Positions 9,910 to 33,017 of a stretch of DNA of 35,196 nt are shown piece by piece. The position numbers and the translations under genes are program-made. Positions within the stretch are counted from its first letter, which is position 1, and each line of letters begins with the position of its first letter. A model generated the notes under the pieces. It was not told the DNA's origin. It made no database searches and saw only the letters and a program-made list of their open reading frames with translations. The DNA is taken from contig CACXDP010000066.1 in the NCBI GenBank assembly GCA_902766445.1, positions 1 to 35,196 of the forward strand, written 5' to 3'. This DNA is from an uncultured Coriobacteriaceae bacterium. Its GTDB lineage: Bacteria > Actinomycetota > Coriobacteriia > Coriobacteriales > Atopobiaceae.

Positions 9910-12096
9910 TTATGGGCGCCGGAAGAGGAACGTAACGGCGATGCCCGCAACGATGGCGACCGCGCACGCGACTAACATCGGCAGGTGGTCCAACAAGGAC
10001 GTAGAGCTGCGCACCTCTGAAGTGTCGAATGGCATGCTTGACCTGGCATGGGCATCGTCAGGACGCTGGAAACCGCTCGCACCGTCGCCCGCTTGCTCAT
10101 CACCGAAGCCGGCAGCGCTGGGAGGTCCGCCCTCGCCGAACCCATCGTCAGTCGGACCTTCTGCGGTCGGCTCATCCCCGTTGTCATCTTCGGAGGCACC
10201 CGTTTCAGAGTGCTCGCCGTCGTTCGCTTCGCCGTTCGGGCCGAAGCCGCCGGGGCCACCGCCGCCATTCGTTTCACCGTTCGGGCCGAAGCCGCCGGGA
10301 CCGCCGCCGTTCGCTTCACCGTTCGGGCCGAAGCCGCCGGGACCACCGCCACCGCCGTTCTGGTCCATCGAACCCATGTCAGAGATGCTAATTGCCGAAG
10401 CATCGGCGAACGCGGACGAATCCTCCTGCTGACCTTCTTCCGTAGAAGGAATGGTGCCGTCGAGCTGGCCTCGCACGCTTTGGACGCGCAGCGCGCAGAA
10501 CTGCTTGAGGGTGTCGACACCTGTCTGGAACTCTTCGTAGGTGCAGAACTTCGTCGGATCACGCTCAACGTAGGGAGTTATCAGGGCCTCGGCCTCTGCG
10601 ATGATGCTCTGGATGTCCACCGTATCGATGAACTCCTGGTAGAGCTCGTGATAGTGCGCGGTGTAAGACTCATCGGTGAAAATCCAGTCCACCATGGGGC
10701 GGCTGTCCGACTCCGTCGAGGAAGAGGAGCTTGCGGCGCCGCTTTGCTCAGCTTGTCCGCTAGCAGGGAATCCAGACATCTGGCCTCCGTTGGGCGGCTG
10801 CGGCGCATCGCCATCGGCAGGTCTTCCGCCCTGCTCCTCTTGCGAATTTTGGGGCATACCACCGGAGCCGGAGGAGACGGGATCATCGATGGGACTGTTG
10901 ACGAGGCTCGTGGCGTCGCCGCCGTCGAAGCCGCCAAAGGCAAGGTTGTAGTCCCAAGGGATCATCGATAGCTGGCCATCGTTTTCGCGTAGGTAGTAGT
11001 TGTGAATCATGTTGCCGGTGTAGGAGTCGCCGTTGCACACGAAGTCATGGACCACGAAATAGCGCTGCACTTCTTCCATGTCAAGCACGTCCTCCAGATC
11101 CTCGCACGCGCTCAGCTTGCGCAGAGACTCAATAAGGCGGGCCTTGTCAGCTGCGGTGATGTCGGTCTTTGCGTTGTCGAAGATGTTTGCGTAGGAATCG
11201 GGGTCGTCGTCGATGTACTGGAGTTTGACGTCGGCAGAGCCCATACCACCGCCTGGACCGCCGCCGGGCCCACCGCCTGGACCTCCCCCACCGGGCTTGC
11301 CGCCTTGGCCGCTACCGGCATCCGCATCATCCGGGCCAGCCGCCGTGTCCTTGTCCGAGGCCGCATCCGCGTCGTCGATCGTGGTATCGCTCTCGGTTGT
11401 AGCATCGCTGGCGGCGTCCTGCTCGGCGAGGATGTCTTGCATGTCGAACTCGCGCCCGTTGCCGCGGCCGCCGCCGAAGCCCGTGCTATCCGGCTTGTAG
11501 AGCTCGCCCACGTCGCCGCCATAGACGCGCTCGAGGAAGCTGTCCTCCACACCTTCCACGGCAAGGTACAGACCCCAGTCCTCTCCATTGACCGTGATGT
11601 TGGCAAAGCTTGCGAGCGGCGCATCCACGCCGAACTCGTTCATCAAGCGATATGCAAGATAGTCTTTGAGGTAGGTGTTGTCTTGAATGATGTTGTTGAG
11701 GCTGAGCTTGTCGAGACCGTGGTAGGTAGTGCCTGCCTCGTACTGGTCAAACTCAATCTTGAAGCTGTAGCGGTCGCTGTCGAGTTGCGAGACGTTCGAG
11801 AGCGAGGTGTTGCCCTTCGCGCGTATTGCGACGTTCTTGAACGACTCCCCGTCCACAACCACGGCACACGACGCGTACTCCTCATCCTCGCACCCCTCGA
11901 TAAAGGAGTCCCAGTCGCTCATCACGATGTCGATGGTATGGACCACCGCCGTGTCAAAGATGCGATCCTCGTAGCCCATCTCATGTCCGCCGGACTCGCC
12001 CTGCGCTGCTCGCAACGCATACGCAACGACACCAAAGGCAAGCGCGAGCGCGATGCAGACAACGCAGACAATTCCTATACGACGATTCGTGGACAT
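9910..12096 (-). CDS. CotH-family kinase-like surface protein
   Basis: This 728-residue protein has an N-terminal membrane segment (about 8-30), the CotH fold and a C-terminal helix (LPMLVACAVAIVAGIAVTFL) followed by RRP. CotH signatures include RAKGNTS, KLSLNN, YLKDYLAYRLMNEFGV, NGEDWGLYLAVE and the metal-binding-like core IPWDYNLAFGG. CotH proteins are atypical protein kinases first known from spore coats; in other bacteria they are exported proteins of unknown substrate. Two low-complexity inserts stand out: GGPGGGPGG in the middle of the kinase region and three near-identical GPGGFGPNGE repeats near residue 600. It starts 4 bases after the stop of the DUF4956 gene, and the VTC gene lies further upstream, so the three form an operon. 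Confidence 0.88.
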   Translation of the reverse strand: MSTNRRIGIVCVVCIALALAFGVVAYALRAAQGESGGHEMGYEDRIFDTAVVHTIDIVMSDWDSFIEGCEDEEYASCAVVVDGESFKNVAIRAKGNTSLSNVSQLDSDRYSFKIEFDQYEAGTTYHGLDKLSLNNIIQDNTYLKDYLAYRLMNEFGVDAPLASFANITVNGEDWGLYLAVEGVEDSFLERVYGGDVGELYKPDSTGFGGGRGNGREFDMQDILAEQDAASDATTESDTTIDDADAASDKDTAAGPDDADAGSGQGGKPGGGGPGGGPGGGPGGGMGSADVKLQYIDDDPDSYANIFDNAKTDITAADKARLIESLRKLSACEDLEDVLDMEEVQRYFVVHDFVCNGDSYTGNMIHNYYLRENDGQLSMIPWDYNLAFGGFDGGDATSLVNSPIDDPVSSGSGGMPQNSQEEQGGRPADGDAPQPPNGGQMSGFPASGQAEQSGAASSSSSTESDSRPMVDWIFTDESYTAHYHELYQEFIDTVDIQSIIAEAEALITPYVERDPTKFCTYEEFQTGVDTLKQFCALRVQSVRGQLDGTIPSTEEGQQEDSSAFADASAISISDMGSMDQNGGGGGPGGFGPNGEANGGGPGGFGPNGETNGGGGPGGFGPNGEANDGEHSETGASEDDNGDEPTAEGPTDDGFGEGGPPSAAGFGDEQAGDGASGFQRPDDAHARSSMPFDTSEVRSSTSLLDHLPMLVACAVAIVAGIAVTFLFRRP

Positions 12097-12100
12097 TGCA

Positions 12101-12772
12101 CTACCCCAGATAGTCGCCGTTGTAGCTCACTAGCACAGCATCGGTTACGCCAGGAAGGGCTGCGAGGTCGTTCACGAAGTCGGTAGAGTCGTTGGCCAAG
12201 CGCACCTCCATGTTGAGCTCAACCTCACCGGCGCGGACCGACTTGCTCTTTACGACGGACTTCTTGCAGCAGCGTGAGAGCAAGTCGCACGCAGCGCGCT
12301 CCGAAGCATCGCCGTCACAGTGCACGACCACGATATAGGGGTTGAGATGGGGCTTCTTGTTGACCATCACGAGCAGGACGATGCCGACAAGCACGCTGCC
12401 CACGGTCGCGAGCGGGATGAGCCCCGCCGCAAGCACGATTCCCACGGCAATCGACCAAAAGAGGAAGGCGATGTCGAGCGGCTCCTTGATTGCCGTGCGG
12501 AATCGGACGATGGAGAGGGCGCCTACCATACCGAGCGAAAGCACGACGTTTGAGGTGACGGCCAGTATCACGATTGTGGTGATCATCGTGAGGGCCACGA
12601 GTGTGACGCCGAAGCTCGACGAGTACATGACCCCCTGGAAGGTGCGCTGGTACACAAAGAAGATGAACATGCCGATGAGGAACGCGAGCACAAGCGCGAT
12701 GGCCGTGTCCACGAGACTCACGCCTGTGACGTTCTCCAAGAAGCTCGATTTGAAGATGTCGTTGAAGGTCAT
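12101..12772 (-). CDS. DUF4956 membrane protein
   Basis: This 223-residue protein has about four membrane helices in the first 140 residues (ALVLAFLIGMFIFFVY, VALTMITTIVILAVTSNVVL, LFWSIAVGIVLAAGLIPLA, VLVGIVLLVMV). The conserved family core GMVGALSIVRFRTAIKEP lies between helices. A soluble domain of about 80 residues follows. The start is ATG 12772, behind AAGGAAA; the same frame stays open far upstream, but only as a shadow of the VTC gene. DUF4956 proteins are commonly found beside VTC and CotH genes, and this gene lies between them (26 and 4 base gaps). The biochemical role is unknown; a membrane partner of the polymerase is an inference. Confidence 0.88.
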   Translation of the reverse strand: MTFNDIFKSSFLENVTGVSLVDTAIALVLAFLIGMFIFFVYQRTFQGVMYSSSFGVTLVALTMITTIVILAVTSNVVLSLGMVGALSIVRFRTAIKEPLDIAFLFWSIAVGIVLAAGLIPLATVGSVLVGIVLLVMVNKKPHLNPYIVVVHCDGDASERAACDLLSRCCKKSVVKSKSVRAGEVELNMEVRLANDSTDFVNDLAALPGVTDAVLVSYNGDYLG

Positions 12773-12798
12773 GATGCGTTTTCCTTTCTTGACGCGCC

Positions 12799-13470
12799 TC
12801 AATCGTGGGCGCGGGCTGCGGCGTACTTCGAATATGCCGACGTGCGGCGACCGGCAAGCTGCACGGCATCGCGCACGACAGAGGGCAGAAACTCGTCCCA
12901 CTTGACCTCTAGGATGATGGGGTCCCCCGGCACGGGAACAGTGGAACAAGCTGGATCGAGGAAGTCGGTGCACACAAGACCGGTGCGGATTTGGTAGTCC
13001 ATGGTCACGCGAACGTTCCCTGCTGGGAAGAGGTACGGTTCGCGCTTGTAGTCCACAATCGTGCGCGGACGCATACCTTGGCAAGTCATGGCCGTGGCAA
13101 GACGACGCATGAGTTGGCGAGAGTCGCGCGACATCCACGCGGTATCGCCATCTACGATTGATTGCGCCTCGCTGGCATCGAGCACGCAGGAATCCTTCGT
13201 GCCAAGACCGTGCGCCTTGGCCTTGCGCTCGAGATGGATGAACGAAGTATCTCCATCGTAGTAGCGGATCCGCCACTTCTCGCGCCTGTCCACACCATCG
13301 AGCTTCTCGCGCAGGGCTTTGTCGGCGAGGTTATCGAAATACAGACTGCGGATAAGGTAGCTACCATTGGTCGCATGCGGGTCGAGCGTGCAGATTGCCG
13401 AGAGCCGCTGCCGCAATGTAATGCGGTCGGAAGCGCTGATCTCATGCTTCCACTCATGTCGCCACTGCAT
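12799..13470 (-). CDS. VTC-domain (polyphosphate polymerase-like) protein
   Basis: This 223-residue protein is a single VTC domain with the basic and acidic strands that line the tunnel of this fold: RHEWKHEIS, IRSLYFDN, KWRIRYYDG, IHLERKAK, VDYKREPY, VRVTMDY and ILEVKWDEFLP. In yeast VTC4 this fold makes polyphosphate from ATP; bacterial single-domain forms are usually annotated as polyphosphate polymerases by homology. ATG 13470 has a strong GAGGAGG site 5 bases upstream. It is the first gene of the VTC-DUF4956-CotH operon. The ~195 bases upstream hold its likely promoter, but no clear boxes were found. Confidence 0.88.
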   Translation of the reverse strand: MQWRHEWKHEISASDRITLRQRLSAICTLDPHATNGSYLIRSLYFDNLADKALREKLDGVDRREKWRIRYYDGDTSFIHLERKAKAHGLGTKDSCVLDASEAQSIVDGDTAWMSRDSRQLMRRLATAMTCQGMRPRTIVDYKREPYLFPAGNVRVTMDYQIRTGLVCTDFLDPACSTVPVPGDPIILEVKWDEFLPSVVRDAVQLAGRRTSAYSKYAAARAHD

Positions 13471-16862: not shown

Positions 16863-17897
16863 CTACGAGGCCGCGCCGTCACTTCTCTCCCCGGGACTCA
16901 CGAGCGGGAAGCACCCGAGATAGCGGAAAACGAATTCGGGTCGCTCCTTCTGAACCGCGTCGAAGGCGTCGCGTCCGCCGCCCGAGGTCTCCACCAGATA
17001 CGCGTAGCGCCCAAGCTCGGACTTCTCAGGACGGTCATGAACGGCTACGACCTCGAGGCCCGCCGCCTCCACGCTTGTCAGCAACTCGGCCAGATCCTCG
17101 ACTCCGCCCGCAGCGGTGAAGGCCATGCGATCGTCTGGCCCCGCGACCGGCGCTTCGGTCGAGAGCACGTAGAAGCGCGTCTTGTTGGCGTCATTCATCT
17201 GGATGGCCTCAGCCGCAACCTCCAAACCGTAGACCCGCGCTGCAGCCCTCGCCCCTATCGCGGCACAGTCTCCCTCCTTGCTCTCGGCGGCCATTCTTGC
17301 GCCTTCAGCCGTACTCGACACCTCGACTACCTCCGCTTGCGGAAGGTGCTCAGAAAGCCATTCTTTCCCCTGCGCGATGCCTTGCTTGTGGGAATAGACC
17401 GTCCGTATGTCATCTAGCTTCGTACCTGGCTTGACGAGTAGGTTCTGGTCTATGGGCAGCTCGACCTCCCCCACTATGGAGACCTGCTCATGGCCAACGA
17501 CTTCGTCCAAATACTCGGCGATGGGTCCACCGATGGCATTCTCCTGCGGGATGACGGCATAATCGGTCTCGCCATCAAGCATAGCCTTCACCGACGCCGT
17601 CACGTCCTCGGCGGGAAGGTAGGTCCCCTGTCCACCAAAGAAGGCCTCGCACGCCTCCTGCGTGTAGGTACCCTCGGGACCAAGGTAGCTCACGCTCGCG
17701 TCCGCATAGTCCGGATGTGCCGATGCCGAAGTCGGTTCCTCGGCAGTCGCTGCGTCGGCCTCGTTCGCGACGGCGTTCGTCTCGACAGAGCTTGTTTCGG
17801 ACGAGTCGCTCGATACAGCGGTCCCCGTCGAACAACTCGCACACGCAAGCGACATGGCCAACAACACTGTCAAGAAACGAGTTTGTCCGTTCACCAT
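16863..17897 (-). CDS. Exported prephenate-dehydratase-like lipoprotein with ACT domain
   Basis: This 344-residue protein starts at ATG 17897, behind AAGGAG. The first ~22 residues look like a lipoprotein signal (hydrophobic run LTVLLAMSLACASC with Cys19 or Cys22 as the lipid site), then a Ser/Thr/Glu/Ala linker. From about residue 71 it follows prephenate dehydratase: YLGPEGTYTQEAC, IPQENAIGGP, VYSHKQGIAQGKEWL and the catalytic-type motif NKTRFYVLS near 240. The last ~80 residues resemble the regulatory ACT domain (HDRPEKSELGRYAYLVE; YLGCFPLV), with ESRP changed to HDRP. The enzyme is normally cytosolic and turns prephenate into phenylpyruvate for phenylalanine synthesis; secretion is unexpected. 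Neighbours are not aromatic amino acid genes. It may be an exported enzyme or an aromatic-ligand sensor. Confidence 0.82.
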   Translation of the reverse strand: MVNGQTRFLTVLLAMSLACASCSTGTAVSSDSSETSSVETNAVANEADAATAEEPTSASAHPDYADASVSYLGPEGTYTQEACEAFFGGQGTYLPAEDVTASVKAMLDGETDYAVIPQENAIGGPIAEYLDEVVGHEQVSIVGEVELPIDQNLLVKPGTKLDDIRTVYSHKQGIAQGKEWLSEHLPQAEVVEVSSTAEGARMAAESKEGDCAAIGARAAARVYGLEVAAEAIQMNDANKTRFYVLSTEAPVAGPDDRMAFTAAGGVEDLAELLTSVEAAGLEVVAVHDRPEKSELGRYAYLVETSGGGRDAFDAVQKERPEFVFRYLGCFPLVSPGERSDGAAS

Positions 17898-17946
17898 CTT
17901 GAAATCACTCCTTACTACCTGCATCTCATACGAAGTGAGTGCCCAC

Positions 17947-21912: not shown

Positions 21913-22380
21913 TCAGAAATCTAGGCCAAGCTTGCCTGCTTCCTCGCGAATCTTCTGATCGATCTCGTCGCCCTTCTCAAGAACCTCCTCGGGCACGGTC
22001 TCCCTCACGACCTCCTCAGTCTTTTTGCGCACATCGCGAACCTGATCGGTGACGGTTTCCTTCAGGGTATTCTTGTTCTCATTGCTCTCATTCTGGGCGT
22101 TCATATCCTCGGTCGGTTTCTCGTCCTTGGCTTCGTTCTCCGCCACTGTCGCAGTGTTGTCGGGCGTCGCAGTGCTTTCGGGCATCGCAGTGCCGTCGGG
22201 CATCTTTCCGGTAGTCTCATCATCGGTCCGCCCCTCATCCTCGACCGAATCATCTTCTTCATACGCTGTCTCATCAAAGAGCTTTTCGGCCTCCTCAGGA
22301 AGCGCACCCCTCATGACGCACTCGAAGTCTTCAATCAGGCCGTCGTCATCCAGGGAGATGTCATACACGTCAGCGAAAAC
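21913..22380 (-). pseudogene. C-terminal half of zinc-ribbon membrane protein, after in-frame amber stop
   Basis: The frame continues without shift after the TAG at 22381-22383: VFADVYDISLDDDGLIEDFE runs straight on from the upstream TYRVIAEWANKNE. About 155 residues follow: the end of a folded domain, an acidic low-complexity stretch rich in Asp, Glu, Thr and Pro, and a helical tail (VRDVRKKTEEVVRETVPEEV, DEIDQKIREEAGKLGL). The first possible internal start, GTG 22368, has no good ribosome site. So this is either the tail of one gene broken by a nonsense mutation, or a part made only by readthrough. A perfect palindrome follows the stop. Confidence 0.65.
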
Positions 22381-23091
22381 CTACTCGTTCTTGTTGGCCC
22401 ACTCCGCGATGACGCGATAGGTGTCCTCGTCAATCTCTACAACTTCGGGATTCTCGATAAGGGTTCTCACATAATCGATGATCGTTGTGCTTGAGTTGTC
22501 GGTATAGGAATTGTCGGTGTAAGAGTTGTCAGTGTAGGAGTTGTCAACAAACACGTTGCTTATCTCGCGTACGACCTGCTCGTATACGCCGCTCCGCGGG
22601 CTCAGATAGGGGACAACGCGCTCGACGACTGGTGTGACGGCGACAACGGTATCCTGCGGAGCCGCCTTACTCGTGCTCTTGCTCGTGTCCGTCGCATCCC
22701 CGTAAAGCATCGAGATAAAGTTCTGGATGATCAACACAAGAGAAGCATCCTCGTCGCTCTTCTTGCTCTTTTTCTTGTCTTTGTCCTCGTCCTTGTCGCT
22801 GGCCTCTTCAACCTTGACAACGCCAGTTTGACGCGTAGAATCCGCGCCAGCCGACTTGCTCGTGGTGATCAGGGCGAAGGCACCGACGCCAATCGTCAAG
22901 ATGAGGAGGACGCAGAGGGCAACTATCAGACCCTGATTGCGCCTAGGCGCGACATTTACGCTGGTAGGTTGTGCAGTCGGTACCTGGGTCGGCGCATAGC
23001 CGTAGTTAGACATGCTGTCAAGAGGTGCACCGCACCTGGAGCAAAACGCCCCTCCGTCGTTGTTTGTGAACCCACAGTTTGCGCAATACAT
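22381..23091 (-). CDS. Zinc-ribbon membrane protein, N-terminal part before amber stop
   Basis: This 236-residue protein starts at ATG 23091 behind GGGGGAG. It opens with a zinc ribbon (MYCANCGFTNNDGGAFCSRC), then a Pro/Thr linker, one membrane helix (GLIVALCVLLILTIGVGAFA) and a lysine/aspartate-rich stretch (DEDKDKKKSKKSDEDAS). The outer part includes three to four DNSYT repeats and ends in TYRVIAEWANKNE before TAG. The in-frame sequence after the stop looks like its natural continuation. The topology (zinc ribbon inside, domain outside) matches the other membrane proteins of the cluster. It is the last gene of the cluster, and it probably has its own promoter in the 117 bases before it. Confidence 0.75.
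   Translation of the reverse strand: MYCANCGFTNNDGGAFCSRCGAPLDSMSNYGYAPTQVPTAQPTSVNVAPRRNQGLIVALCVLLILTIGVGAFALITTSKSAGADSTRQTGVVKVEEASDKDEDKDKKKSKKSDEDASLVLIIQNFISMLYGDATDTSKSTSKAAPQDTVVAVTPVVERVVPYLSPRSGVYEQVVREISNVFVDNSYTDNSYTDNSYTDNSSTTIIDYVRTLIENPEVVEIDEDTYRVIAEWANKNE
22496..22555. repeat. 15 bp tandem repeat coding DNSYT
   Basis: Three good and one diverged copies of the 15 base unit TTGTCGGTGTAGGAG (plus-strand sense) encode successive DNSYT pentapeptides in the zinc-ribbon membrane protein. Copy number could vary by slippage without shifting the frame. Confidence 0.75.
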
Positions 23092-23125
23092 GATCTCCCC
23101 CAATCTTTGCTAAGGTTTTTCGCTG

Positions 23126-23154
23126 AATACAATCTACCAAAGCAACAAGGACAA
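23126..23154 (-). promoter_or_regulatory. Candidate promoter of the zinc-ribbon membrane protein gene
   Basis: On the minus strand TTGTCC (23154-23149) is followed after exactly 17 bases by TGTATT (23131-23126). It lies in the gap after the PP2C gene, 35 bases before the ATG. The match to consensus is moderate. Confidence 0.35.
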
Positions 23155-23208
23155 TTTTGCGTTACCGAAAGCGAAGGAAACGACACTTGTCCCTGATTGG
23201 GCTACTGA

Positions 23209-25599
23209 TCATGCATTAATTCTTGTGCCCCGGGTATTGTACGTGATGGACAGTTCGCTTCCCCCATCTGTGGCGTCGCCGGCCTCGGCCCTTCCGGTCG
23301 CCGTGGCGTCGCCAGCTTCGGTTTCCTCGGACATCGCAGATTCGCCAGCATCCGCAGCCTCGTCGGCCTTGATGAGTCGTGCGACCTCATTCATCACGAC
23401 GTTAAATTCCGAATAGTGCTTCAAGCCATTCATAAGGCTCTGTCGCGAGTCTTTGCTCAGCTCCCATTCATTGTTGCCATTCTGCTCGAGGTAGACATCA
23501 GCCTGTTGTCCATCCGCTCGATTCGTCTTGCAATACGTCTCATCTTGAAGTTTCTCCGTCATGTATTCGAGCAATTCGCTTGCGGTATCCGCTTCCCCGT
23601 CATTCGCGTATTGATTCAAGGCATTCTTCGACGTAACGCAACTGTAGTTTATGGTGGCATGACAACTAGCGTCAGACGCGGACACACTGAACGGCTCTCG
23701 CGTGACAGCCCTCTTGTAAGCGTCCAGTAAACGATTCAATTCTTCAGGGTAAACTCTCTGAACCTTTTTGAAATCCTCGTTGTCATTTTCCGTGCTAAAC
23801 GCCTCATCAAAGGCATCGCTCACGACCTGACGTATCTCCACCTCACTTGGCATCGGTTTCGGTGGCGGCACCTCTCTCTCCGTCGCCGATGAATCTGTCG
23901 CCGATGAATCCGTCGCCGATGAATCCGTCGCGGACGATTCCGTAGTGACTGGCTCTGCCGGGACTTTCTCCTCAACCTGCTTGCTCTCGCCACACGACCG
24001 CAGAGCTAGGAAGCAAAGCAGGCCTACCAGCACCAACGAAAGCACCACGATGAGAATCACCATGACGGTGCGCTTGCGATCCACGCTGGACTGATGCGGC
24101 TCCACGCTCATGGTAGGCGCATCATGGCGTTTCTTTGGCTTAGGACGAGACGGCGCATCAACTTCGTCGGACCCAGACCCCTCTAGGGAGCTATCCTCCG
24201 GTGGGTCATCAACCGCGATAATCAGAGTTTTTTCTATTGCATCGTCAGCATCGTCTTCCAACACTGGCGTCACGTCATCAGGTGCGAACGCATCGGCCTC
24301 CTCATCCTGTTCGCTCGCCTCAGAAACGCTTGTCTCGGATTCGAGAGGCTTGGCCGGAGGCAATTCTCCGAGGTCGCGCTCGACCGAGGCAATTCTCTGC
24401 TCAATCTTGCGGTACTCCGCGATGTAGGCGTCACGCTCGCGTGCCATCGCCTCGTTGCCCGGAACAAGCGCAAGAAAGTACTCGTACTTGCGCTGCATGG
24501 AGTTGAGCCGTTCCTTGTCGGTCGTAATGCTCCATCGCATGTCAAAGACAAGGCGTTCGCGAGCCAACGCATCCGAAAGCCTTCGTACCGCATTGATGTC
24601 GACGATGCCCGCGATCGAGACGTCGTCGCCACTCCCCTCCTTGCTTACTCGATTCATCATCGCCTTGAGGTCGCTATCGAACTCTTCGACGTCCCATGCG
24701 TCCTTGTCCACACGGTCGATTACGTCCAAGGCAATCCCGACAAAGAGGTCTGATGCACCGCCATCGCTCGGCAGCGACTTGTCGACACCATCAGTCCCCA
24801 CAAAGAGGGCTGCCACGGTATCCGTCTCGCCGTCGAGTGCGACCACACGCATACGCTCGGCTGCGTCGGAATCCGAGAGCGACGTGGTGACATTGCCCAC
24901 GCAAAGCTCGTCCTCAGGAATCACGTCACTACGAACAAGGTGGTGGCGACCATCGGCAAAGATAGCTGTCGCGCACCCATCACCCTGCTGAATGAGAATG
25001 CAGAGATCGGGCAGCATGAGGACGGCAACCAGCGTTGTGCCATAGATCCGACGAATGGCCTTTTGCCTCCACGCGTCATCCGACTGCTCCATAGCCTGCA
25101 CCAAGTCGGTAATGGGGTCAGCCTTGTAGTCGGCCGTAATCTCTTCCCTCCAGCCATCAACGATTTGGCGTACAAGGCGAGGGCGCAGCGACTCCCCCAC
25201 TCGCTGAGCTCGTTGCCCCTCTCCCTCGGTCGAGGTGGCGGATGCTGCAAGCTCTGCAGGTGCCGCGGGCGATGCGCTCACTACAGGCGCTACGGGCGTG
25301 ACAGCATTACGCTCATCAATCAGAAGCGATGAGCGCATCTCGCGCCACGAGGCATCGTCGGCGTCCAGATAACGCCGAGCCGTGTCAGACAAGCACTCAA
25401 GGGTTACTCCTACAGCAATGCGCGAGCCTCTTTCGCTGCGCCTGCAGGTAGGGTCACCATGACCGTCGGCAACCACGGCAATAATCGCGCGTCCTCTTGC
25501 GCCATCGAGCACCCGCGTGCCGGAAAAGTCCTGGCACACAGTGCCTTTCGCTATATGCGAGACACCCCTCACATGACCGTCGAAGCAAACTATACTCAT
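23209..25599 (-). CDS. PP2C-type protein phosphatase with membrane helix and outer domain
   Basis: This 796-residue protein has an N-terminal PPM/PP2C domain with metal-binding motifs VVADGHGD (43-49), YGTTLVAVLM, LIQQGDG, VGTDGVDKS (~266) and GSGDDVSIAGI (~323). An Ala/Ser-rich insert lies near residues 98-130. A coiled-coil stretch (about 345-410), an acidic linker, one membrane helix (about 511-534, VILIVVLSLVLVGLLCFLAL), four SSATD repeats and an outer domain of about 180 residues follow. It would remove phosphate from Ser/Thr in the cytosol while sensing something outside. Neighbour genes supply the kinase, vWA protein and FHA protein, so it is the phosphatase of a phospho-signalling set. 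ATG 25599 follows a moderate AGGCGAG site. Confidence 0.9.
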   Translation of the reverse strand: MSIVCFDGHVRGVSHIAKGTVCQDFSGTRVLDGARGRAIIAVVADGHGDPTCRRSERGSRIAVGVTLECLSDTARRYLDADDASWREMRSSLLIDERNAVTPVAPVVSASPAAPAELAASATSTEGEGQRAQRVGESLRPRLVRQIVDGWREEITADYKADPITDLVQAMEQSDDAWRQKAIRRIYGTTLVAVLMLPDLCILIQQGDGCATAIFADGRHHLVRSDVIPEDELCVGNVTTSLSDSDAAERMRVVALDGETDTVAALFVGTDGVDKSLPSDGGASDLFVGIALDVIDRVDKDAWDVEEFDSDLKAMMNRVSKEGSGDDVSIAGIVDINAVRRLSDALARERLVFDMRWSITTDKERLNSMQRKYEYFLALVPGNEAMARERDAYIAEYRKIEQRIASVERDLGELPPAKPLESETSVSEASEQDEEADAFAPDDVTPVLEDDADDAIEKTLIIAVDDPPEDSSLEGSGSDEVDAPSRPKPKKRHDAPTMSVEPHQSSVDRKRTVMVILIVVLSLVLVGLLCFLALRSCGESKQVEEKVPAEPVTTESSATDSSATDSSATDSSATEREVPPPKPMPSEVEIRQVVSDAFDEAFSTENDNEDFKKVQRVYPEELNRLLDAYKRAVTREPFSVSASDASCHATINYSCVTSKNALNQYANDGEADTASELLEYMTEKLQDETYCKTNRADGQQADVYLEQNGNNEWELSKDSRQSLMNGLKHYSEFNVVMNEVARLIKADEAADAGESAMSEETEAGDATATGRAEAGDATDGGSELSITYNTRGTRINA
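23881..23943. repeat. 15 bp tandem repeat coding SSATD
   Basis: Four copies of a 15 base unit (GCCGATGAATCCGTC in plus-strand sense, the last diverged) encode SSATD pentapeptides just outside the membrane helix of the PP2C protein. The unit keeps the frame, so copy changes would only alter linker length. Confidence 0.8.
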
Positions 25600-25625
25600 G
25601 GCTCGCCTACCATCTGTCTAGTCGT

Positions 25626-26441
25626 CTAGATTATGAAGAACGAGAGTCTCAGCGGCCCACGTCGGCCCGATAGCTCGTCGAAGACACCATACCCCGGCAC
25701 GTCGAGTTTCGTGGTGACGTTCACACCTGCTGGTATGTCGACCTCGACGCTCTCGTGCGTGCTCTTGTCAATCTCGATACGTTTGACGCAACCCGTACGT
25801 GCCTCGGCCGCCGAAAGCATGACCAAGCTCGAGAGCACCGAAGCGTCATCATCGTTGTCCGCGGCAGGTGGCGCCGGCACTGGCCTCACGGGGCCAGTCT
25901 GCTGACTGACACCGTAGGGCTGATTGCTAGGCTGGCCATAGGGCTGTTCACCCCATGCGAGTTGCGTCCCGCCATTATTCGGACCTACTCCTCCCGCTTT
26001 AGCCGGCGAATCTATCTTCATACCGCAACTGATGCAATACATCGCATCCGGCTCTAGGGGATATCCGCATTGCGGACAACTCGACGGAGCTGCACCATTG
26101 CCGCTCACGAACGCCATATCATAGTTATCCGTAATTCCGCCACCCGTTACTACCGGCGCACCGCATACCACGCAGAACTGCGCACCTGGCTCGAGTGGAT
26201 TACCACAGCTGGCGCAGGTCCCACCCCCCGGCATCGACTCGACGACTCGTTGTGTATCCGCGAACTGCTTGGGCTGCTGCACACCTGCTATCTGCGGCTG
26301 CGGCGCGGCAGGCTGCATCGCCGGAGCCTGGTTTACCTGAGCTCCACACACGATGCAGAACATCGCATCAGCCTCCAACGGAGCGCCACAGACTTGGCAC
26401 GAACCGCCCTGCATTTGTCCCACAAACTGGGTACCGCCCAT
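25626..26441 (-). CDS. Triple zinc-ribbon protein
   Basis: This 271-residue protein starts at ATG 26441 behind GGGAGGGAG. It contains three double-Cys zinc ribbons separated by Gln/Pro/Gly-rich linkers: CQVCGAPLEADAMFCIVCG, CASCGNPLEPGAQFCVVCG and CPQCGYPLEPDAMYCISCG. The last ~70 residues form a beta-rich segment (CVKRIEIDKSTHESVEVDIP, VTTKLDVPGYGVFDEL). No membrane helix is seen, so it is probably cytosolic. Zinc ribbons of this kind mediate protein contacts. It lies between the vWA and PP2C genes (gaps of 52 and 26 bases), so it may act as a scaffold or phosphorylation target in the same pathway (inference). Confidence 0.8.
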   Translation of the reverse strand: MGGTQFVGQMQGGSCQVCGAPLEADAMFCIVCGAQVNQAPAMQPAAPQPQIAGVQQPKQFADTQRVVESMPGGGTCASCGNPLEPGAQFCVVCGAPVVTGGGITDNYDMAFVSGNGAAPSSCPQCGYPLEPDAMYCISCGMKIDSPAKAGGVGPNNGGTQLAWGEQPYGQPSNQPYGVSQQTGPVRPVPAPPAADNDDDASVLSSLVMLSAAEARTGCVKRIEIDKSTHESVEVDIPAGVNVTTKLDVPGYGVFDELSGRRGPLRLSFFII

Positions 26442-26493
26442 GTTGTCTCCCTCCCTTAGACCCGACCGAACAGTCGGGCACATCTGTCACAAC

Positions 26494-27291
26494 TCACCAC
26501 TCGCGCTGATCATCCCACGTGAATGCTTTATCAGCCGAGCCTGGCCTGGCATCGATTTGAGGCGTTTGGAAGTCAACCGTGTTTATAACTGGAATGACCT
26601 CGCCTGGGTCGATGTCCGTCATGTTGAGACCCGCACGCACTGCTTCGGCGCCACTGATCTCCGCATCGCGCGTGTGCGAGTTGCCCGCCAAGGTGGAGGC
26701 CGAGACGCTCACAAAGCGAAGCAGACGGGCAAAGACGCCCAAATCCTCCGTGCGTATGACTGCTTCGGAGCTGCCTACGAGCTTGGCTATCATCTCTGTG
26801 TCGGGGTTGCGCCCAATGGCAAAGCCTACACGCGTTGCCTTGCTGAACCACCTGTTGCGCATAATCTTTTGCAGCTCACGCTCGTAGTCATCGGTAGCGA
26901 AGCCGTCGGTCATAAAGATAATGACAGGCAGGAATGCGCTTGTCATCGAGTTGAGGAACGCGCTACGCGAGAGCTTGGAGTCAAGCTCTCGCAAGGCTGC
27001 ACCGACCTCGGTCTTTCCCGCCGCCACCAAGTCCGACCAAAAGAAGTCATCCAAGTACTCGGGGCCGTTGGGATTAATCCAGCGACACGTACTGTTGAAC
27101 TCTAGCACCGCAATCTTCACGTTGGCGTCGCTGTGGTGCGCAGCAACCTGCTTGAGTGCATCCACCGTAGACTCCATGGCGCGATTGAGCACACCGATGG
27201 GTTTGTTTTGCATACTACCTGAGGTGTCAAGCACGTAAAACACGTGCAGGTCGGGACGCATCATCGCGCCGAGGTCGTCCATATGTGGCAT
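26494..27291 (-). CDS. TerY/YegL-like von Willebrand factor A protein
   Basis: This 265-residue protein is a single vWA domain plus a C-terminal tail. The metal-ion site is complete: DTSGS at 22-26, a Thr in GKTEVGAAL and MTDGF near residue 129. This is the TerY/YegL type, which in known systems is encoded together with a PP2C phosphatase and a Ser/Thr kinase. The start follows AGGAG by 5 bases. It begins 12 bases after the kinase stop. It probably binds a partner protein in a metal-dependent way and brings kinase, phosphatase and target together. Confidence 0.88.
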   Translation of the reverse strand: MPHMDDLGAMMRPDLHVFYVLDTSGSMQNKPIGVLNRAMESTVDALKQVAAHHSDANVKIAVLEFNSTCRWINPNGPEYLDDFFWSDLVAAGKTEVGAALRELDSKLSRSAFLNSMTSAFLPVIIFMTDGFATDDYERELQKIMRNRWFSKATRVGFAIGRNPDTEMIAKLVGSSEAVIRTEDLGVFARLLRFVSVSASTLAGNSHTRDAEISGAEAVRAGLNMTDIDPGEVIPVINTVDFQTPQIDARPGSADKAFTWDDQREW

Positions 27292-27303
27292 CTTTGCTCC
27301 TAT

Positions 27304-28608
27304 CTACACGTTCCTACTGATATGTATACGCTCTTCATTGAGCCTAAGCTCCATGTCAGGAATCACCATCACCGTCTGACGAGGTGCAACCATATGGATG
27401 CTAGCGCCCTGCGAAACGCCCCAAGGCGCTCGGGAGACGTTCCTGACGCCAAGCACGTCCGGGCGCTCGCGCGAGGCCAACACCCATACGAGCGGCTCAA
27501 GCGCGACATTGGCATCGCAAACGCCCGTCTGGCAACGATAGATGCGCGTGTCGTCCACGAAGGGTAGCGAGTAGCCAGGGAGATCCGCGCGCAAGGCAGT
27601 CCCCACCCTTCTGCCACAAGAGGGCTTGTCGCAGGTACGAGGTCTCGCGTTCTCGAGAAACACCTCGTTGCCACACACGCAGTTGACCACCTCAGACCTG
27701 AAGCGCACGAGTTCACGAATCCAGTCCATCTCACTCGGCCTGCGATTGGGATTCTTGAGCGCGTTTTGCGAGAAGGCGCGCAGGAAGATACGACGCATGT
27801 GCTCGGGCAGACACGGCCAAACCTTAAGCGCGTTGGGGAAGGCAGGATCGGGACGGTTGGTCGTGATGTCGGGGTCCATGATGAAGACCGGCTCGATGCC
27901 GTAGAGACGCTTCTGCATCGTAGGGTCGAGCGAGCCAGCCTTCGTGAAGCGCACACCCTCCAAGGGGTGCTGTACGCAAAGCATCATAAACATCAGCACT
28001 GCCAGAGAGTGTCGGTCGCTCTGCACGGAGGGAACTGAGTTCTCCACCACAATCTCAGGAGCCATGAATCGCGGAGTACCACGAATACCCGTATCGATAC
28101 CGGCAGGTGCGACGTTGTCGTTGTCGCATATGAGTACTTGGCCCGAATGCGGATTCACAAAGAAGTTGCCACCGCTGACGTCCTGATAGCAGTATCCCTT
28201 GCTGTGGAGCACGTTAAAAGCCGAGACGACATTCATGCACGCATCGATTGCGCGGCGATATGACGGAAAGAGGTTTGGGTGCAGGAAAAGCTCCCTCGCC
28301 TCCACGAATCCCTCGGGGCGAAGATCCATCACGTAGCCGAAGCTTCCGCCCATAACCTCGACCATGTCGACTGGCCAGAGGAAATCGTCAGTGGGCTTGC
28401 CAGACATGATGTTGTTGCGCAGATTGTCGATGAACTTCTGACGGTCATAGAACACGTTGGGACGATACCACTTGAGCGCCATGGGACGACCGTCGTAATC
28501 GATGGCATACACGATGCCCTGGCTGCCGTCACCTAGCTGCTTGACGACCCGAATCTCTTTGTTGAACTTCGTACGGAGACTGGCCCCCGCTTCAAGCCCT
28601 GCGCCCAT
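27304..28608 (-). CDS. Atypical Ser/Thr protein kinase with C-terminal zinc-ribbon-like module
   Basis: This 434-residue protein has a kinase fold in the first ~285 residues: glycine loop GDGSQGIVY, ATP-binding Lys in MALKWY (~46), catalytic loop YQDVSGGNF (~141) where HRD is replaced by YQD, metal-binding segment CDNDNV (~162) in place of DFG, and GTPRFMAPE. The catalytic Asp, Asn and metal Asp are kept, so it is probably active. A Cys cluster follows (CVCGNEVF, RTCDKPSCGRR), then a beta-rich tail (WVLASRERPDVLGVRNVS) like that of kinases in TerY-P-type sets. ATG 28608 is chosen for its 6 base spacing from GGAG; ATG 28611 is also possible. There is no membrane helix, unlike the phosphatase and transporter beside it. 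Confidence 0.87.
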   Translation of the reverse strand: MGAGLEAGASLRTKFNKEIRVVKQLGDGSQGIVYAIDYDGRPMALKWYRPNVFYDRQKFIDNLRNNIMSGKPTDDFLWPVDMVEVMGGSFGYVMDLRPEGFVEARELFLHPNLFPSYRRAIDACMNVVSAFNVLHSKGYCYQDVSGGNFFVNPHSGQVLICDNDNVAPAGIDTGIRGTPRFMAPEIVVENSVPSVQSDRHSLAVLMFMMLCVQHPLEGVRFTKAGSLDPTMQKRLYGIEPVFIMDPDITTNRPDPAFPNALKVWPCLPEHMRRIFLRAFSQNALKNPNRRPSEMDWIRELVRFRSEVVNCVCGNEVFLENARPRTCDKPSCGRRVGTALRADLPGYSLPFVDDTRIYRCQTGVCDANVALEPLVWVLASRERPDVLGVRNVSRAPWGVSQGASIHMVAPRQTVMVIPDMELRLNEERIHISRNV

Positions 28609-28696
28609 CATACTCTCCACTAATCGCTCGTTCTTCTGACAGCATGTACTCTACCATAGCGCCGGGACGCCTTTTTGCGTAATACGATGACTGCCA

Positions 28697-28728
28697 AGGC
28701 ACACGAAAAGCTTGCCTTTCGTGTGCCT
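28697..28728. terminator. 12 bp hairpin after the FHA-ABC gene
   Basis: AGGCACACGAAA (28697-28708) and TTTCGTGTGCCT (28717-28728) pair perfectly around an 8 base loop, 15 bases after the transporter stop. No T run follows on the minus strand. It may only partly stop transcription and so set kinase levels relative to the upstream genes. Confidence 0.55.
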
Positions 28729-28743
28729 CCTTCGTGCGCCTCA

Positions 28744-31326
28744 CTAGTGTCGGACCTCCAAAGCCAAGGTGATCCAGCAGCCGACAACGGTAACGAGCGA
28801 GAAGGCCAACAAGATGCCCCAACTCCGGAAGAGATGCTCCGTCTTGTGCTCAAACATGATTTCTTCGTCCTCGCTCGGGTCGTGGGGGTACATCTCTTCG
28901 TCGATGACCTTCGTCATCTCGGGTATCGCCACATCGAGCTTGTCGAAGTGCTCTTCATGCTCTTCGATGGGAACCGTCTTCTTGACAACGCCAGCGCCGG
29001 GTATCTCCTCACTCATATCGACCTCGACCTCCTTCTCCATCTTTGGGACGGTGATGGTCTGGTCCTCAATCTCGTAGTGGTCGTCCGCCGGTATGGTGAT
29101 CTCCTCGCCATAGATTGACAGCGGAAGGTGGTTCAGGTCAGCCGAAGTGCCCATCGCCTCGATGGCCCAACGGCAGTTGATGCCATAGGAGATGATTCTC
29201 GTGGTGCCATTCAGTTCGAAGGCGATGCCCGAGAAGAGGATCTGAGGCAGAATCAGCAGCGGTGCCAGGGCAAGCGCAGCCGCAGGGCTGCGGAATACCG
29301 CAGAGACAAAGAGACCCAGGCACATGGCAGACATCACCGTAAGGTACGTCGACAGAACGAGCTCGAATCGCCCGTTAATCAGCTCCTCGGCTGGCGGCTC
29401 CTCGTACATCATGATTAACACGACTCCTATGAGAAGCACCGTCTGCACAAGGCATAGAATTCCCATCACCAGGACCTTGGACATGATGTAGGAGCCCAGG
29501 CGCATGCCGCCGTCGTACTCCCGACGGAATATGCCCTTCTCCTTGCAAATCTCTTGGATCGAGTCGAAGATACCCACCCAAAACGCTGCGCACGAGAGGG
29601 CAAAGAGGAAGAACTTTGTGTCCTCGCACTGGGAGAAAACGTGTTGGCCCGCGACGATTTGTATCAGGAAGGCAAGCAGCGGGGCCTGGCCAACCATGAG
29701 CAGCAGGCGAGGCCAGTCGTTGAGCAGCAGCTTGACGTAGCGCGACGAGAGGGTGATGAGCTGGCTAAACGCATTGGGTGTCTTCTTCCCTGCCGCGATG
29801 CCCCCGCCCGAGGGCGTGGGCGTAGCCTCTGGCGCTCCTCCCCTGTGTGCAACGAGAAACTTCTGCTCCCATACGTCAGGCTTCGAGTCGATGAGGGGGT
29901 ACACGTCCACGAAGTCGCTCACGCCAAAGAACGAGTAGACACCCTGCGGACTGTCCGCATACGCAAGCTTGCCACCCGCACCGAGGAAGACTACCTGGTC
30001 ACAGAGGTGTAGGTTCAACGTGGTATGTGTCACGAGGATGATGGTGCGTCCTTCATGCGCCATCTCGGAGAGACGCTGCATGAGCTTGCGCTCGATGCCC
30101 GGATCGAGGCCCGAGGTCGGCTCGTCGAGGAAAAGCAGCCGCGGGTCCGCGAGCAACTCCACCGCAATCGACGCGCGCTTCTTTTGCCCACCAGAAAGCT
30201 TGCCGATAAAGTTCTCGCGGACGCCCTGCAGCTCGAGCAGGTCAATGACCTCCTCCACACGCTTGGCGCGCTCTTCGGCCGTCGTGTCGGGTTGCATGCG
30301 CAGCTTGGCAGCATAGGCAAGCATATCGGTAAGGCGCAACTCGTCGTAGACGATGTCTTGCTGAGGCACGTAGCCGATGGAACTCTTGAGCATCGCGTAG
30401 TTGGCATAGAGATCGGTGCCATCGAGGAGTACGGAACCTTCGTCAGCTGGCTCTGAACCATTGATCTCGTTGAGCAGGGTGGACTTGCCGCAGCCGGACC
30501 CACCGACGATGGCCACGAACTCGCCACGCTTGATGTGAAGCGAGACATGGTCGGTCGTGATGCGGCGAACGCCCTTGTTTGTCCGATAGCGCACGAGGTT
30601 GGTAGCGACGAGCTCAACGCCCTGGCGCTCCACGACCACGAGCAGGCAGGTGTCCAGAAAGACGATCCGCGAGTTGCCGAGCATAATCACGGAGCCGCCC
30701 ATGAGGGGGACCGTGCCGCGGACGAACCTACCGTTGACACGCGTACCGTTTGAGCTGCCGAGATCGGTGATGGTCCAGGCGCCCTGGCCATTGTTGTCTA
30801 GGCGAGCATGCTGCGACGAGACTGTGGGATCGGGCAGTGTCAGGTCATTCTCGGGAATACGACCGACGCTCAAGGTTCTGCGATCTCGCAGGTTAAACAT
30901 GCTCCAGCGTTTGTCACCCTCACCCACTATGATGACAGTGCGTGTGGCCCCGCGCTGCGGCATGCCCACGGTAACAATGTCTCCAAGCGTGAGAGGTATG
31001 CGCGACTGGCGGGCTCCGTTGTAGTACAAGCCGTTCATCGAGTTGTTGTCCACCACAAAGAGCTGGCCGCCACGAACTTCGAAGTAGCCATGATGCCCCG
31101 AGACCGTCTGGGATGGCGCATTGATGACGACGTCATTGTCATGCTTACGACCAAACGTCACGGTGGCGTCATTGTTTGTGACAATGGTGGTCTCCGCTAG
31201 AATGCGGTCCCCCTCAACGAAGGTCAGGGAAAATGATCGGGGTATCGGGCGTCCCATAGGCGCGCCGCACCGCGGACAGAACCGTTCTTGGGGATTCACC
31301 TGGCTTCCGCATTTAGGGCAAAACAT
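28744..31326 (-). CDS. Zinc ribbon-FHA-FHA-ABCG-type transporter
   Basis: This 860-residue protein starts at ATG 31326 behind GAGGAGG. In order it has a zinc ribbon (CPKCG...CPRCG, 3-21), FHA domain 1 (GRKHDNDVVI 59-68, SGHHG, NNSMNG), FHA domain 2 (GRIPENDLTL 155-164, SSQHAR, SSNGT), an ABC ATPase (Walker A GGSGCGKST 275-283, signature LSGGQKKR, Walker B LLFLDEPTSGLD) and an ABC-2 type membrane domain with about six helices. FHA domains bind phosphothreonine, so transport is probably switched by the kinase and phosphatase encoded beside it. An acidic stretch of ~100 residues (EEITIPADD ... FEHKTEH) lies between the last two helices, which is unusual. It starts 28 bases after the discoidin-like gene. 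The substrate is unknown. Confidence 0.92.
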   Translation of the reverse strand: MFCPKCGSQVNPQERFCPRCGAPMGRPIPRSFSLTFVEGDRILAETTIVTNNDATVTFGRKHDNDVVINAPSQTVSGHHGYFEVRGGQLFVVDNNSMNGLYYNGARQSRIPLTLGDIVTVGMPQRGATRTVIIVGEGDKRWSMFNLRDRRTLSVGRIPENDLTLPDPTVSSQHARLDNNGQGAWTITDLGSSNGTRVNGRFVRGTVPLMGGSVIMLGNSRIVFLDTCLLVVVERQGVELVATNLVRYRTNKGVRRITTDHVSLHIKRGEFVAIVGGSGCGKSTLLNEINGSEPADEGSVLLDGTDLYANYAMLKSSIGYVPQQDIVYDELRLTDMLAYAAKLRMQPDTTAEERAKRVEEVIDLLELQGVRENFIGKLSGGQKKRASIAVELLADPRLLFLDEPTSGLDPGIERKLMQRLSEMAHEGRTIILVTHTTLNLHLCDQVVFLGAGGKLAYADSPQGVYSFFGVSDFVDVYPLIDSKPDVWEQKFLVAHRGGAPEATPTPSGGGIAAGKKTPNAFSQLITLSSRYVKLLLNDWPRLLLMVGQAPLLAFLIQIVAGQHVFSQCEDTKFFLFALSCAAFWVGIFDSIQEICKEKGIFRREYDGGMRLGSYIMSKVLVMGILCLVQTVLLIGVVLIMMYEEPPAEELINGRFELVLSTYLTVMSAMCLGLFVSAVFRSPAAALALAPLLILPQILFSGIAFELNGTTRIISYGINCRWAIEAMGTSADLNHLPLSIYGEEITIPADDHYEIEDQTITVPKMEKEVEVDMSEEIPGAGVVKKTVPIEEHEEHFDKLDVAIPEMTKVIDEEMYPHDPSEDEEIMFEHKTEHLFRSWGILLAFSLVTVVGCWITLALEVRH

Positions 31327-31354
31327 CGAAGCAATTCCTCCTCTTAGATGTCGA

Positions 31355-32902
31355 CTAGAAGACCTCGATCTCGTCAATGCAGGTATCGGGCCAGTTGCAG
31401 CGACCCGTACCGTCCTTATTTGTATCGTATACCGACTTGATAAAAATGCGTAAGAATGTGGTGTTGTGCGGCTCGTCGAACTCGACGATCTGCCAATCGC
31501 CGGGACCCTCGTCTCCAAACGTCACATTCTGACTGTAGCCGTCGGAGAGCTCGATGGTGGCATCCTTGACGCGAGGGTTCCAGTAATAGTACGAGCGACC
31601 ATTGGAGCTATCCATATCGTCGGGTATCATCCTCGAGAAGCCATTGATGATCTTGAAGCCTGAGAGACGCTGCTTCTCCTTAGCCGAGAGCTCGATGTAC
31701 TCGCCGACACCAGCACAACTATCGGCAAAAGAACCAGTGATGGTTCCATTCTGCCACTCCTCGATTGTTTCGTCGCTCTCGCTTTCTGGCCAATTCGTCT
31801 GCCTGTTTCCTTGTGACCAGCATGTCTGTCTACTACCATCGAGAACCTGCTGCGGGGCGTACTTATCCGGATCGTCTGAGTCAATGAGCGTCGAGCTTGC
31901 GTTCGCGCTGCTGAACACGGGCGGGTAGGACCCTTCTTCCTCGACCGCAGACTCCGTGGTCCCGTCACTCGGCTTGTCAACGTTTCCTCCGCTATCCCTC
32001 TGCACAACACTGTTGCTTTGGCTGTCGTTAGTAATTGACGATTTCGGCAACGCTATGTAACCGATGAACGCAAGAGCAAGACAGACAATCACTCCCACTA
32101 AGATGGGATAGCGTTTGTGGGGTTCTTTGCCACGCAACCGATGACCGCAACTTGCGCAGAACTCGTTATTTACGTCGTTCTGTGCGTTGCATGAAGGGCA
32201 GATCACAACCGGGATTGGAGAAGGTAGTGGCGATGTCGGGGTTGGCGGCGTCGACGGGGTCGACGGCGATGTCGGGGTTGGCGGCGTCGATGGGGTCGGC
32301 GGAACTACTTCGTCACGCAGAGGGCGACCGCATGCTGCACAGTTACTGTTTTCCGGAGCGTTCCCTATGCCGCAATGAGGACAATGCACCTCCTGTTCGT
32401 GGGGTATGTCGCCACCAAACGATATCTGCAGACCCAGATGGTCGGCTATGCCCTGTGCAACCGACTCGGAGACCGTGCTCGCCATTCGAGGGACTATCAT
32501 GCGTTCCTCTGAGAGGAACTGCGTTGCTTTCAGTGCGGCCGTCTCGAGGTCGGAGCTCGATCGTCGATTTGCGGGCATATCGTATATTGAAAGGAATTCT
32601 TCGTCGCATTGCTTCATGAAGGTCGATCCGACGCGATCCTCCTCAGGAATGAAATCGCTGGCATAGGCAGCTAGCCGACGGGGATTCTTGAGCACGCCCA
32701 TTCCGAACTCACGCAGGGCATCCCTCACGACCTGCGCGAGGTGCTCAGCCTGAGCTGACCCCTCGCGATTGAAGTAGGACGAAGACAGGCTCGAACCAGT
32801 GCTCGCGGCTCCTGCCGAGCCAGAACCCGAGAGCTGCATGCCGCATCGCGGGCAGTGCTCGCTGCCCTCCGCGACCAAGCTCCCACAGACAGGACAATAC
32901 AT
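31355..32902 (-). CDS. Zinc-ribbon membrane protein with discoidin-like outer domain (paralogue B)
   Basis: This 515-residue protein has an N-terminal zinc ribbon (CPVCGSLVAEGSEHCPRCG), then a helical module of ~100 residues (NPRRLAAYASDFIPEEDR, LETAALKATQFLSEERM), two more zinc ribbons (CPHCGIGNAPENSNCAACG; CPSCNAQNDVNNEFCASCG), one membrane helix (about 264-285) and an outer domain of ~145 residues. The outer domain (YAPQQVLDGSRQTCW, GEYIELSAKEKQRLSGFKI, YSQNVTFGDEGPGDWQIVEF, FLRIFIKSVYDT) follows the F5/8 type C or NADase-type glycan-binding fold, which usually binds sugars. The gene lies 112 bases downstream of a close paralogue and 28 bases upstream of the FHA-ABC gene. It may sense or anchor at the cell surface. 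Confidence 0.82.
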   Translation of the reverse strand: MYCPVCGSLVAEGSEHCPRCGMQLSGSGSAGAASTGSSLSSSYFNREGSAQAEHLAQVVRDALREFGMGVLKNPRRLAAYASDFIPEEDRVGSTFMKQCDEEFLSIYDMPANRRSSSDLETAALKATQFLSEERMIVPRMASTVSESVAQGIADHLGLQISFGGDIPHEQEVHCPHCGIGNAPENSNCAACGRPLRDEVVPPTPSTPPTPTSPSTPSTPPTPTSPLPSPIPVVICPSCNAQNDVNNEFCASCGHRLRGKEPHKRYPILVGVIVCLALAFIGYIALPKSSITNDSQSNSVVQRDSGGNVDKPSDGTTESAVEEEGSYPPVFSSANASSTLIDSDDPDKYAPQQVLDGSRQTCWSQGNRQTNWPESESDETIEEWQNGTITGSFADSCAGVGEYIELSAKEKQRLSGFKIINGFSRMIPDDMDSSNGRSYYYWNPRVKDATIELSDGYSQNVTFGDEGPGDWQIVEFDEPHNTTFLRIFIKSVYDTNKDGTGRCNWPDTCIDEIEVF

Positions 32903-32936
32903 GGCGCCTCATTTCCTTGCCCGTCGTCACGGTACG

Positions 32937-32945
32937 AGTATAGCA
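32937..32945 (-). promoter_or_regulatory. Extended -10 box of paralogue B
   Basis: The minus strand reads TGCTATACT, a TGN extended -10 motif, 35 bases before the ATG. The same motif with the same flanks lies before paralogue A (34618-34626). The -35 position falls in the end of the palindrome at 32952-33017, where no TTGACA-like box is present. Confidence 0.5.
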
Positions 32946-32951
32946 GGGCGC

Positions 32952-33017
32952 TGACCGCTAGCCCACAGTGGGATCGTGGTCAAAAGTGACCACGATCCCA
33001 CTGTGGGCTAGCGGTCA
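32952..33017. repeat. 66 bp perfect palindrome, family C, copy 2
   Basis: Arms 32952-32982 and 32987-33017 are exact reverse complements around AAAG. The outer end supplies the TGA stop codon of paralogue A (33015-33017), and the other end lies 6 bases from the extended -10 box of paralogue B. It therefore fills the space where a terminator for A and an operator or -35 region for B would be. Confidence 0.92.

Follow-up and report, generated by a model that had tools for sequence, protein, structure and literature searches.

An acknowledged puzzle is the export of shikimate-pathway enzymes (secreted chorismate mutases, PheC and fusions), which has so far been studied mostly in Proteobacteria, mycobacteria and eukaryotic plant pathogens. 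PheC of Pseudomonas aeruginosa is described as derived from a solute-binding protein, without an ACT domain and located in the Gram-negative periplasm; exported enzymes of this type are not feedback regulated, and a "hidden overflow pathway" from chorismate has been proposed for Pseudomonas (PMC10520331). Another example is EqPdt of the powdery mildew Erysiphe quercicola, a PheA-type prephenate dehydratase (PDT) in which mutation of the Thr of the TRF motif abolishes activity; changes to the ESRP motif are reported to desensitise PDTs to phenylalanine (PMC11980547). Finally, GqqA of Komagataeibacter europaeus has the same fold and demonstrates that the PDT family can gain an activity linked to cell signalling (PMC8192741).

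Here we describe a gene from an uncultured Coriobacteriaceae bacterium, found in a window of 35,196 nucleotides (the whole stretch of DNA analysed), and the family to which it belongs. This family would be an independent, PheA-side case of the same puzzle, in Gram-positive gut anaerobes and without an exported chorismate mutase. While the extracellular reaction is known (from PheC, the CM-CDT fusions and EqPdt), its Gram-positive version, a predicted PheA-type lipoprotein, is apparently new: open-licence papers yielded no exported bacterial PheA-type PDT (a lipoprotein with PF00800 and ACT), which does not in itself prove novelty.

Like the cytosolic PheA enzymes of E. coli, S. aureus, C. tepidum and Arthrobacter, the family has a PF00800 domain, the same fold (Z 25-26), the same catalytic residues and a C-terminal ACT domain, but it differs from them in its signal and lipobox, its replaced ESRP and GALV motifs, its separate branch and its coexistence with a cytosolic copy. 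With PheC and the CM-CDT fusions of Proteobacteria (PMC10520331) it would share export of the same reaction and freedom from feedback, both of which are predicted here, and it likewise has a cytosolic chorismate mutase-PDT alongside. Unlike PheC, it combines PF00800 with ACT in Gram-positive gut hosts, carries a lipoprotein signal and is accompanied by no exported chorismate mutase in the genomes tested; the window protein has a PheC-like export signal, as judged from its letters, but neither a solute-binding-protein family domain nor the ACT-free architecture. EqPdt is alike in its PheA type, extracellular action, altered ESRP and insensitivity to aromatic amino acids (again predicted in our case), but is fungal, is secreted without a signal peptide, partners a secreted chorismate mutase and has NSRP rather than HDRP (PMC11980547). 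GqqA, in turn, is only ~20-25% identical, binds phenylalanine at its ACT interface and has no export signal described in the accessible parts of its paper (PMC8192741).

Gene and predicted product

The gene lies on the minus strand, with the following features:

16863..17924, minus strand: whole open reading frame of 353 codons (353 aa), from ORF and sequence reading and dN/dS
17908..17913, minus strand: Shine-Dalgarno-like AAGGAG, 10 nt 5' of the ATG at 17897
17832..17897, minus strand: predicted signal peptide MVNGQTRFLTVLLAMSLACASC, with a signal found in 62/62 homologues
Codons 17843-17841 and 17834-17832, minus strand: candidate lipidation cysteines, from sequence pattern
17694..17831, minus strand: linker of roughly 50 residues, rich in Ser, Thr, Ala and Glu
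17154..17693, minus strand: PheA-type prephenate dehydratase catalytic domain (PF00800), ORF residues 78-257, from Pfam and fold match
17172..17180, minus strand: TRF catalytic motif (Thr249-Arg250-Phe251; E. coli T278-F280), kept in 54/54 exported homologues
16905..17129, minus strand: ACT domain with changed Phe-binding motifs (HDRP for ESRP, EDLA for GALV), from the secondary structure of the model and residue mapping onto E. coli PheA

On our reading of the sequence, the most likely start is the ATG at 17897, giving a protein of 344 aa. This was also the choice of the first-pass annotation, and we prefer it since AAGGAG (17913-17908) lies 10 nt ahead, whereas no Shine-Dalgarno-like motif was seen for the ATG at 17924. 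A scan for promoters and terminators gave no signal above shuffles.

Export signal

The N-terminus of the window protein, MVNGQTRFLTVLLAMSLACASC, contains a single Arg and a hydrophobic core, along with two cysteines that are candidates for lipidation. Of these, the first (MSLA followed by Cys) matches a PROSITE-type lipobox; the second (CAS followed by Cys) aligns with the LAGC of relatives and has an unusual Cys at -3. The lipobox is atypical, and either cysteine could be the one modified. A relaxed pattern, namely a hydrophobic stretch that precedes the domain and ends in [AGS]-Cys, was present in 62/62 non-redundant homologues but in 0/40 cytosolic PheA proteins and in 52/3100 shuffled N-termini (1.7%), counts which rule out a signal peptide arising by chance. 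Requiring a strict PROSITE-like lipobox, a start close by and a basic residue leaves 40/62; the other homologues, which the relaxed pattern still picks up, carry Pro, Asn or Cys around -3/-4 or have a start that lies far off.

A further hint comes from Lachnospiraceae MC2017, where a lipoprotein-type GH3 glycosidase carries the PDT domain as its C-terminal part (PF00933 E 1.1e-83, PF00800 E 4.9e-59). As such a fusion must share one compartment, this PDT domain would lie outside the cell if the glycosidase does. We infer from these patterns that the family is exported and lipidated.

Catalytic domain and fold

PF00800 covers the catalytic domain at full length (profile positions 1-179 of 181; E 6.4e-58; 196 bits against a cut-off of 25.2) and is the only Pfam match of the window protein, the Pfam ACT models giving none. 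In the AlphaFold model (mean pLDDT 89.6), however, the ~75 residues after PF00800 form a complete ACT fold. The earlier description of a lipoprotein-like signal and linker preceding a whole PDT and ACT region is supported by the signal pattern (62/62), the complete PF00800 match and the modelled ACT fold. Against NCBIfam PRK11898, the cytosolic PheA equivalog, the window protein scores 192.6 bits, below the cut-off of 219; the exported family falls outside this curated equivalog.

Among crystal structures, the best matches of the model are prephenate dehydratases (Arthrobacter, Brucella, Chlorobium, S. aureus), with Z 25-26 over ~265 residues, and GqqA structures are among them (7am0, Z 25.7). 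HisG and solute-binding proteins follow, with a middling Z of ~8-9. These matches, along with the GqqA paper, which calls the PDT catalytic domain a periplasmic-binding-protein (PBP) domain (PMC8192741), indicate that this domain is itself PBP-like. The first-pass annotation had held that PheC uses a different fold; PheC does belong to a different family, but the contrast in fold was overstated.

We mapped 54 aligned exported members onto E. coli PheA. The residues E159, N160, S208, H209, Q211, Q215, T278, R279 and F280 (E. coli numbering) are identical in all 54, and the window protein itself has the equivalents of E159-N160, S208, Q215 and T278-R-F. The TRF motif, previously noted as kept, is indeed present at residues 249-251 and throughout the 54 homologues. 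For E. coli, E159 is reported as a residue that matters in substrate binding (PMC8192741). One caveat is the position of E. coli T161, directly after E-N: it is Thr in 48/54 but Ala in the window protein and four others, which we count against the reading of the window protein as a working enzyme. There are also substitutions near the active site, namely S163 to Gly (54/54), P210 to Lys (46/54), C216 to Gly or Ser (54/54) and F219 to Trp (54/54).

Across the close pairs that could be resolved, dN/dS was 0.07-0.18, and the window gene paired with its nearest orthologue (95% identical) gave 0.11; these computations show that the exported PDT genes are under purifying selection. Given the invariant active-site residues and the low dN/dS, we argue for a working dehydratase, and we infer from sequence conservation that the exported family probably acts on prephenate.

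Phenylalanine regulation

A PheA enzyme regulated by phenylalanine is recognised by an ACT domain with GALV and ESRP; the window protein has a predicted ACT fold with neither motif. At the ESRP position the family has HDRP (His 54/54, Asp 51/54, Arg 54/54, Pro 54/54), while the first two GALV positions are mostly acidic or polar, the window protein having EDLA. By the precedent of E. coli, where such replacements desensitise the enzyme (PMC11980547), the exported family would be insensitive to phenylalanine, in line with the unregulated exported enzymes of PheC type (PMC10520331). These changes also make it less likely that the protein is an aromatic amino acid receptor, as had been suggested for it. 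Because HDRP is so uniform, a new role of the ACT site is favoured over its decay.

Distribution and evolution

What had been noted as a single gene is real but not isolated: it belongs to a conserved, horizontally moving family, of which we examined 62 homologues from Coriobacteriia and rumen-type Bacillota. Scanning 84,980 species genomes with the window protein returned 32 loci, all of them 50-95% identical in the best segment except for a distant chloroflexotal PDT, and most of the named carriers come from the rumen or ruminant gut (RUG and RGIG genomes, and isolates such as Lachnospiraceae NK4A144, KH1P17 and MC2017). When related genomes were searched, a second group came to light, which is more divergent and spans the same genus, other genera of the family and one more family of the order; a third occurs in the two sampled Bacillota families. 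Prevalence is patchy: the gene occurs in 22/347 genomes of the order, in 5/299 and 6/300 of the two Bacillota families and, in a draw across the phylum, in 1/398 (the query genome itself). Within the window's own genus, 13/15 further genomes carry at least one such gene, some of them broken. Stop codons or frameshifts interrupt six of the loci, and broken copies were found in six genomes, which suggests gene gain and loss, or assembly errors; since some copies elsewhere are broken, the gene appears to be dispensable.

A maximum-likelihood tree built from 78 proteins by a quick search, with SH-aLRT as the sole support measure, places the exported proteins together on one side of a branch that is 1.36 long (SH-aLRT 100). 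The Coriobacteriia group of the window is nested in a Bacillota group, and the second Coriobacteriia group adjoins other Bacillota sequences. This placement is most simply read as a single origin of the exported form and at least two transfers between Bacillota and Actinomycetota. Relatives of the adjoining DUF434 gene occur in two congeners without an adjoining PDT, consistent with lineage-specific acquisition, though contig ends lie near and leave no clean empty site. A viral origin was also considered, and no relative was found among the viral contigs scanned; among the matches listed in the plasmid search, there were only ordinary PDTs of <36% identity.

Cytosolic counterparts and chorismate mutases

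The window genome is a 4.07-Mb draft of 484 contigs, 89% complete. Its one other PDT is a chorismate mutase-PDT fusion on contig 350, beside aroC (named from sequence), so that a search for a second, cytosolic pheA, proposed earlier as a check, was positive. Of the Bacillota carriers tested, 11/12 likewise encode a cytosolic PDT besides the exported one, in most cases as a fusion with chorismate mutase.

No exported chorismate mutase was found in the window genome, in its relatives or in 17 Bacillota carriers. Such a partner was rejected since each relative has a single CM_2 gene, which in nearly all cases is fused with the cytosolic PDT, and the extra chorismate mutase genes of some Bacillota hosts are cytosolic. 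There is hence no evident extracellular supply of prephenate in the carriers tested, an overflow pathway of the Pseudomonas type would be incomplete, and prephenate would need to arrive preformed, from plant material or from cells that lyse or leak. Among the extra cytosolic chorismate mutases of the Bacillota hosts, three, all in Lachnospiraceae carriers, are fused to a shikimate-kinase-like domain (named from sequence).

Function

Taken together, we consider it probable that the family consists of membrane-anchored, phenylalanine-insensitive PheA-type prephenate dehydratase lipoproteins working outside the cell, with a product that may be taken up or serve as a signal. The export tag, the retained catalytic residues and the lost phenylalanine switch make prephenate chemistry in the surroundings of the cell probable. 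A lipid anchor would hold the dehydratase on the outer face of the cytoplasmic membrane, where it would convert extracytoplasmic prephenate to phenylpyruvate, CO2 and water without feedback by phenylalanine. More speculatively, prephenate could leak from the cell itself or derive from lysed neighbours or ingested plant tissue, and phenylpyruvate could then be imported as a ready-made phenylalanine precursor, or act as a signal or a cue of cell lysis; the benefit of the exported copy to the cell is likewise speculative. Several observations count against this explanation: the atypical lipobox of the window protein, the PRK11898 score below cut-off, the apparent dispensability of the gene, a genomic context without functional hints and the failure to find an exported chorismate mutase in the genomes tested. 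A broader scenario, in which a transferred family of ruminant-gut lipoproteins combines extracellular prephenate chemistry with an ACT domain repurposed, via HDRP, to sense a ligand other than phenylalanine, as part of a cross-feeding or signalling system built on a metabolite believed to be intracellular, is tentative and we think it more doubtful than probable.

An unlikely alternative is that the protein is a sensor or binding protein, in which prephenate or a related acid sits in the PDT cleft, or a new ligand at the HDRP of the ACT domain, and its presence is signalled to the cell. The conservation of HDRP does suggest that the ACT site is still active in some role, and signalling has been proposed for the exported CM-CDT fusions (PMC10520331). 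Yet all catalytic residues counted are invariant, beyond what binding alone would need, and no receptor, transporter or kinase gene recurs beside the family.

We give rather little credence to an exported enzyme of PDT fold acting on another substrate, such as arogenate or a signal molecule, in the way that GqqA of Komagataeibacter acts on acyl-homoserine lactones. GqqA, reported to have both activities (PMC8192741), is among the best fold matches of the model. The family-wide changes around S163, P210, C216 and F219 would fit such a shift, but every residue tied to dehydration is retained, to a greater extent than is described for GqqA. As for acyl-homoserine lactones in particular, they are not usual signals in Gram-positive bacteria, which the hosts of this family are.

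A cytosolic housekeeping PDT, with translation beginning past the signal or a mis-called N-terminus, is very improbable: the one in-frame start between the signal and the domain of the window protein, a GTG two codons ahead of the domain (codon 78 of the ORF), has no Shine-Dalgarno-like motif, unlike the ATG at 17897; in 33/62 homologues the stretch from the lipobox Cys to the domain contains no start codon; and the signal in 62/62 homologues, the cytosolic chorismate mutase-PDT already in the genome and the GH3 fusion all speak against it, so that a downstream start, named earlier as what would overturn the lipoprotein reading, was rejected.

As the gene is present in isolates (NK4A144, KH1P17, MC2017) and crosses phyla, the idea of prephenate as a shared or signalling metabolite of the rumen becomes testable. 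A practical implication is that, in genomes annotated with two prephenate dehydratases, one may stand outside cytosolic phenylalanine synthesis.

Genomic surroundings

Upstream, the exported gene adjoins a DUF434/DUF5616 protein, beyond which lies a further protein of no known family; downstream it adjoins a UvrD-like helicase with zinc ribbons. The first-pass annotation had placed the gene apart from aromatic biosynthesis genes, and its neighbours indeed include none of that pathway. In an all-against-all comparison of the ORFs around the homologues, no gene recurred beyond 3-4 loci, so the genome context offers no functional hint.

Elsewhere in the window, overlapping ORFs with repetitive wording on both strands at 1256-1789 suggest repeated DNA rather than genes. 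A CotH kinase-like protein, a DUF4956 membrane protein and an apparent VTC-type domain protein follow in a row at 9910-13470. Lastly, the region 21913-34583, mostly on the minus strand, encodes zinc-ribbon proteins, a PP2C-type phosphatase, a VWA-like and a protein kinase-like protein, an FHA-ABC transporter fusion and two similar zinc-ribbon proteins, a cluster that looks like a phosphorylation-controlled membrane system.
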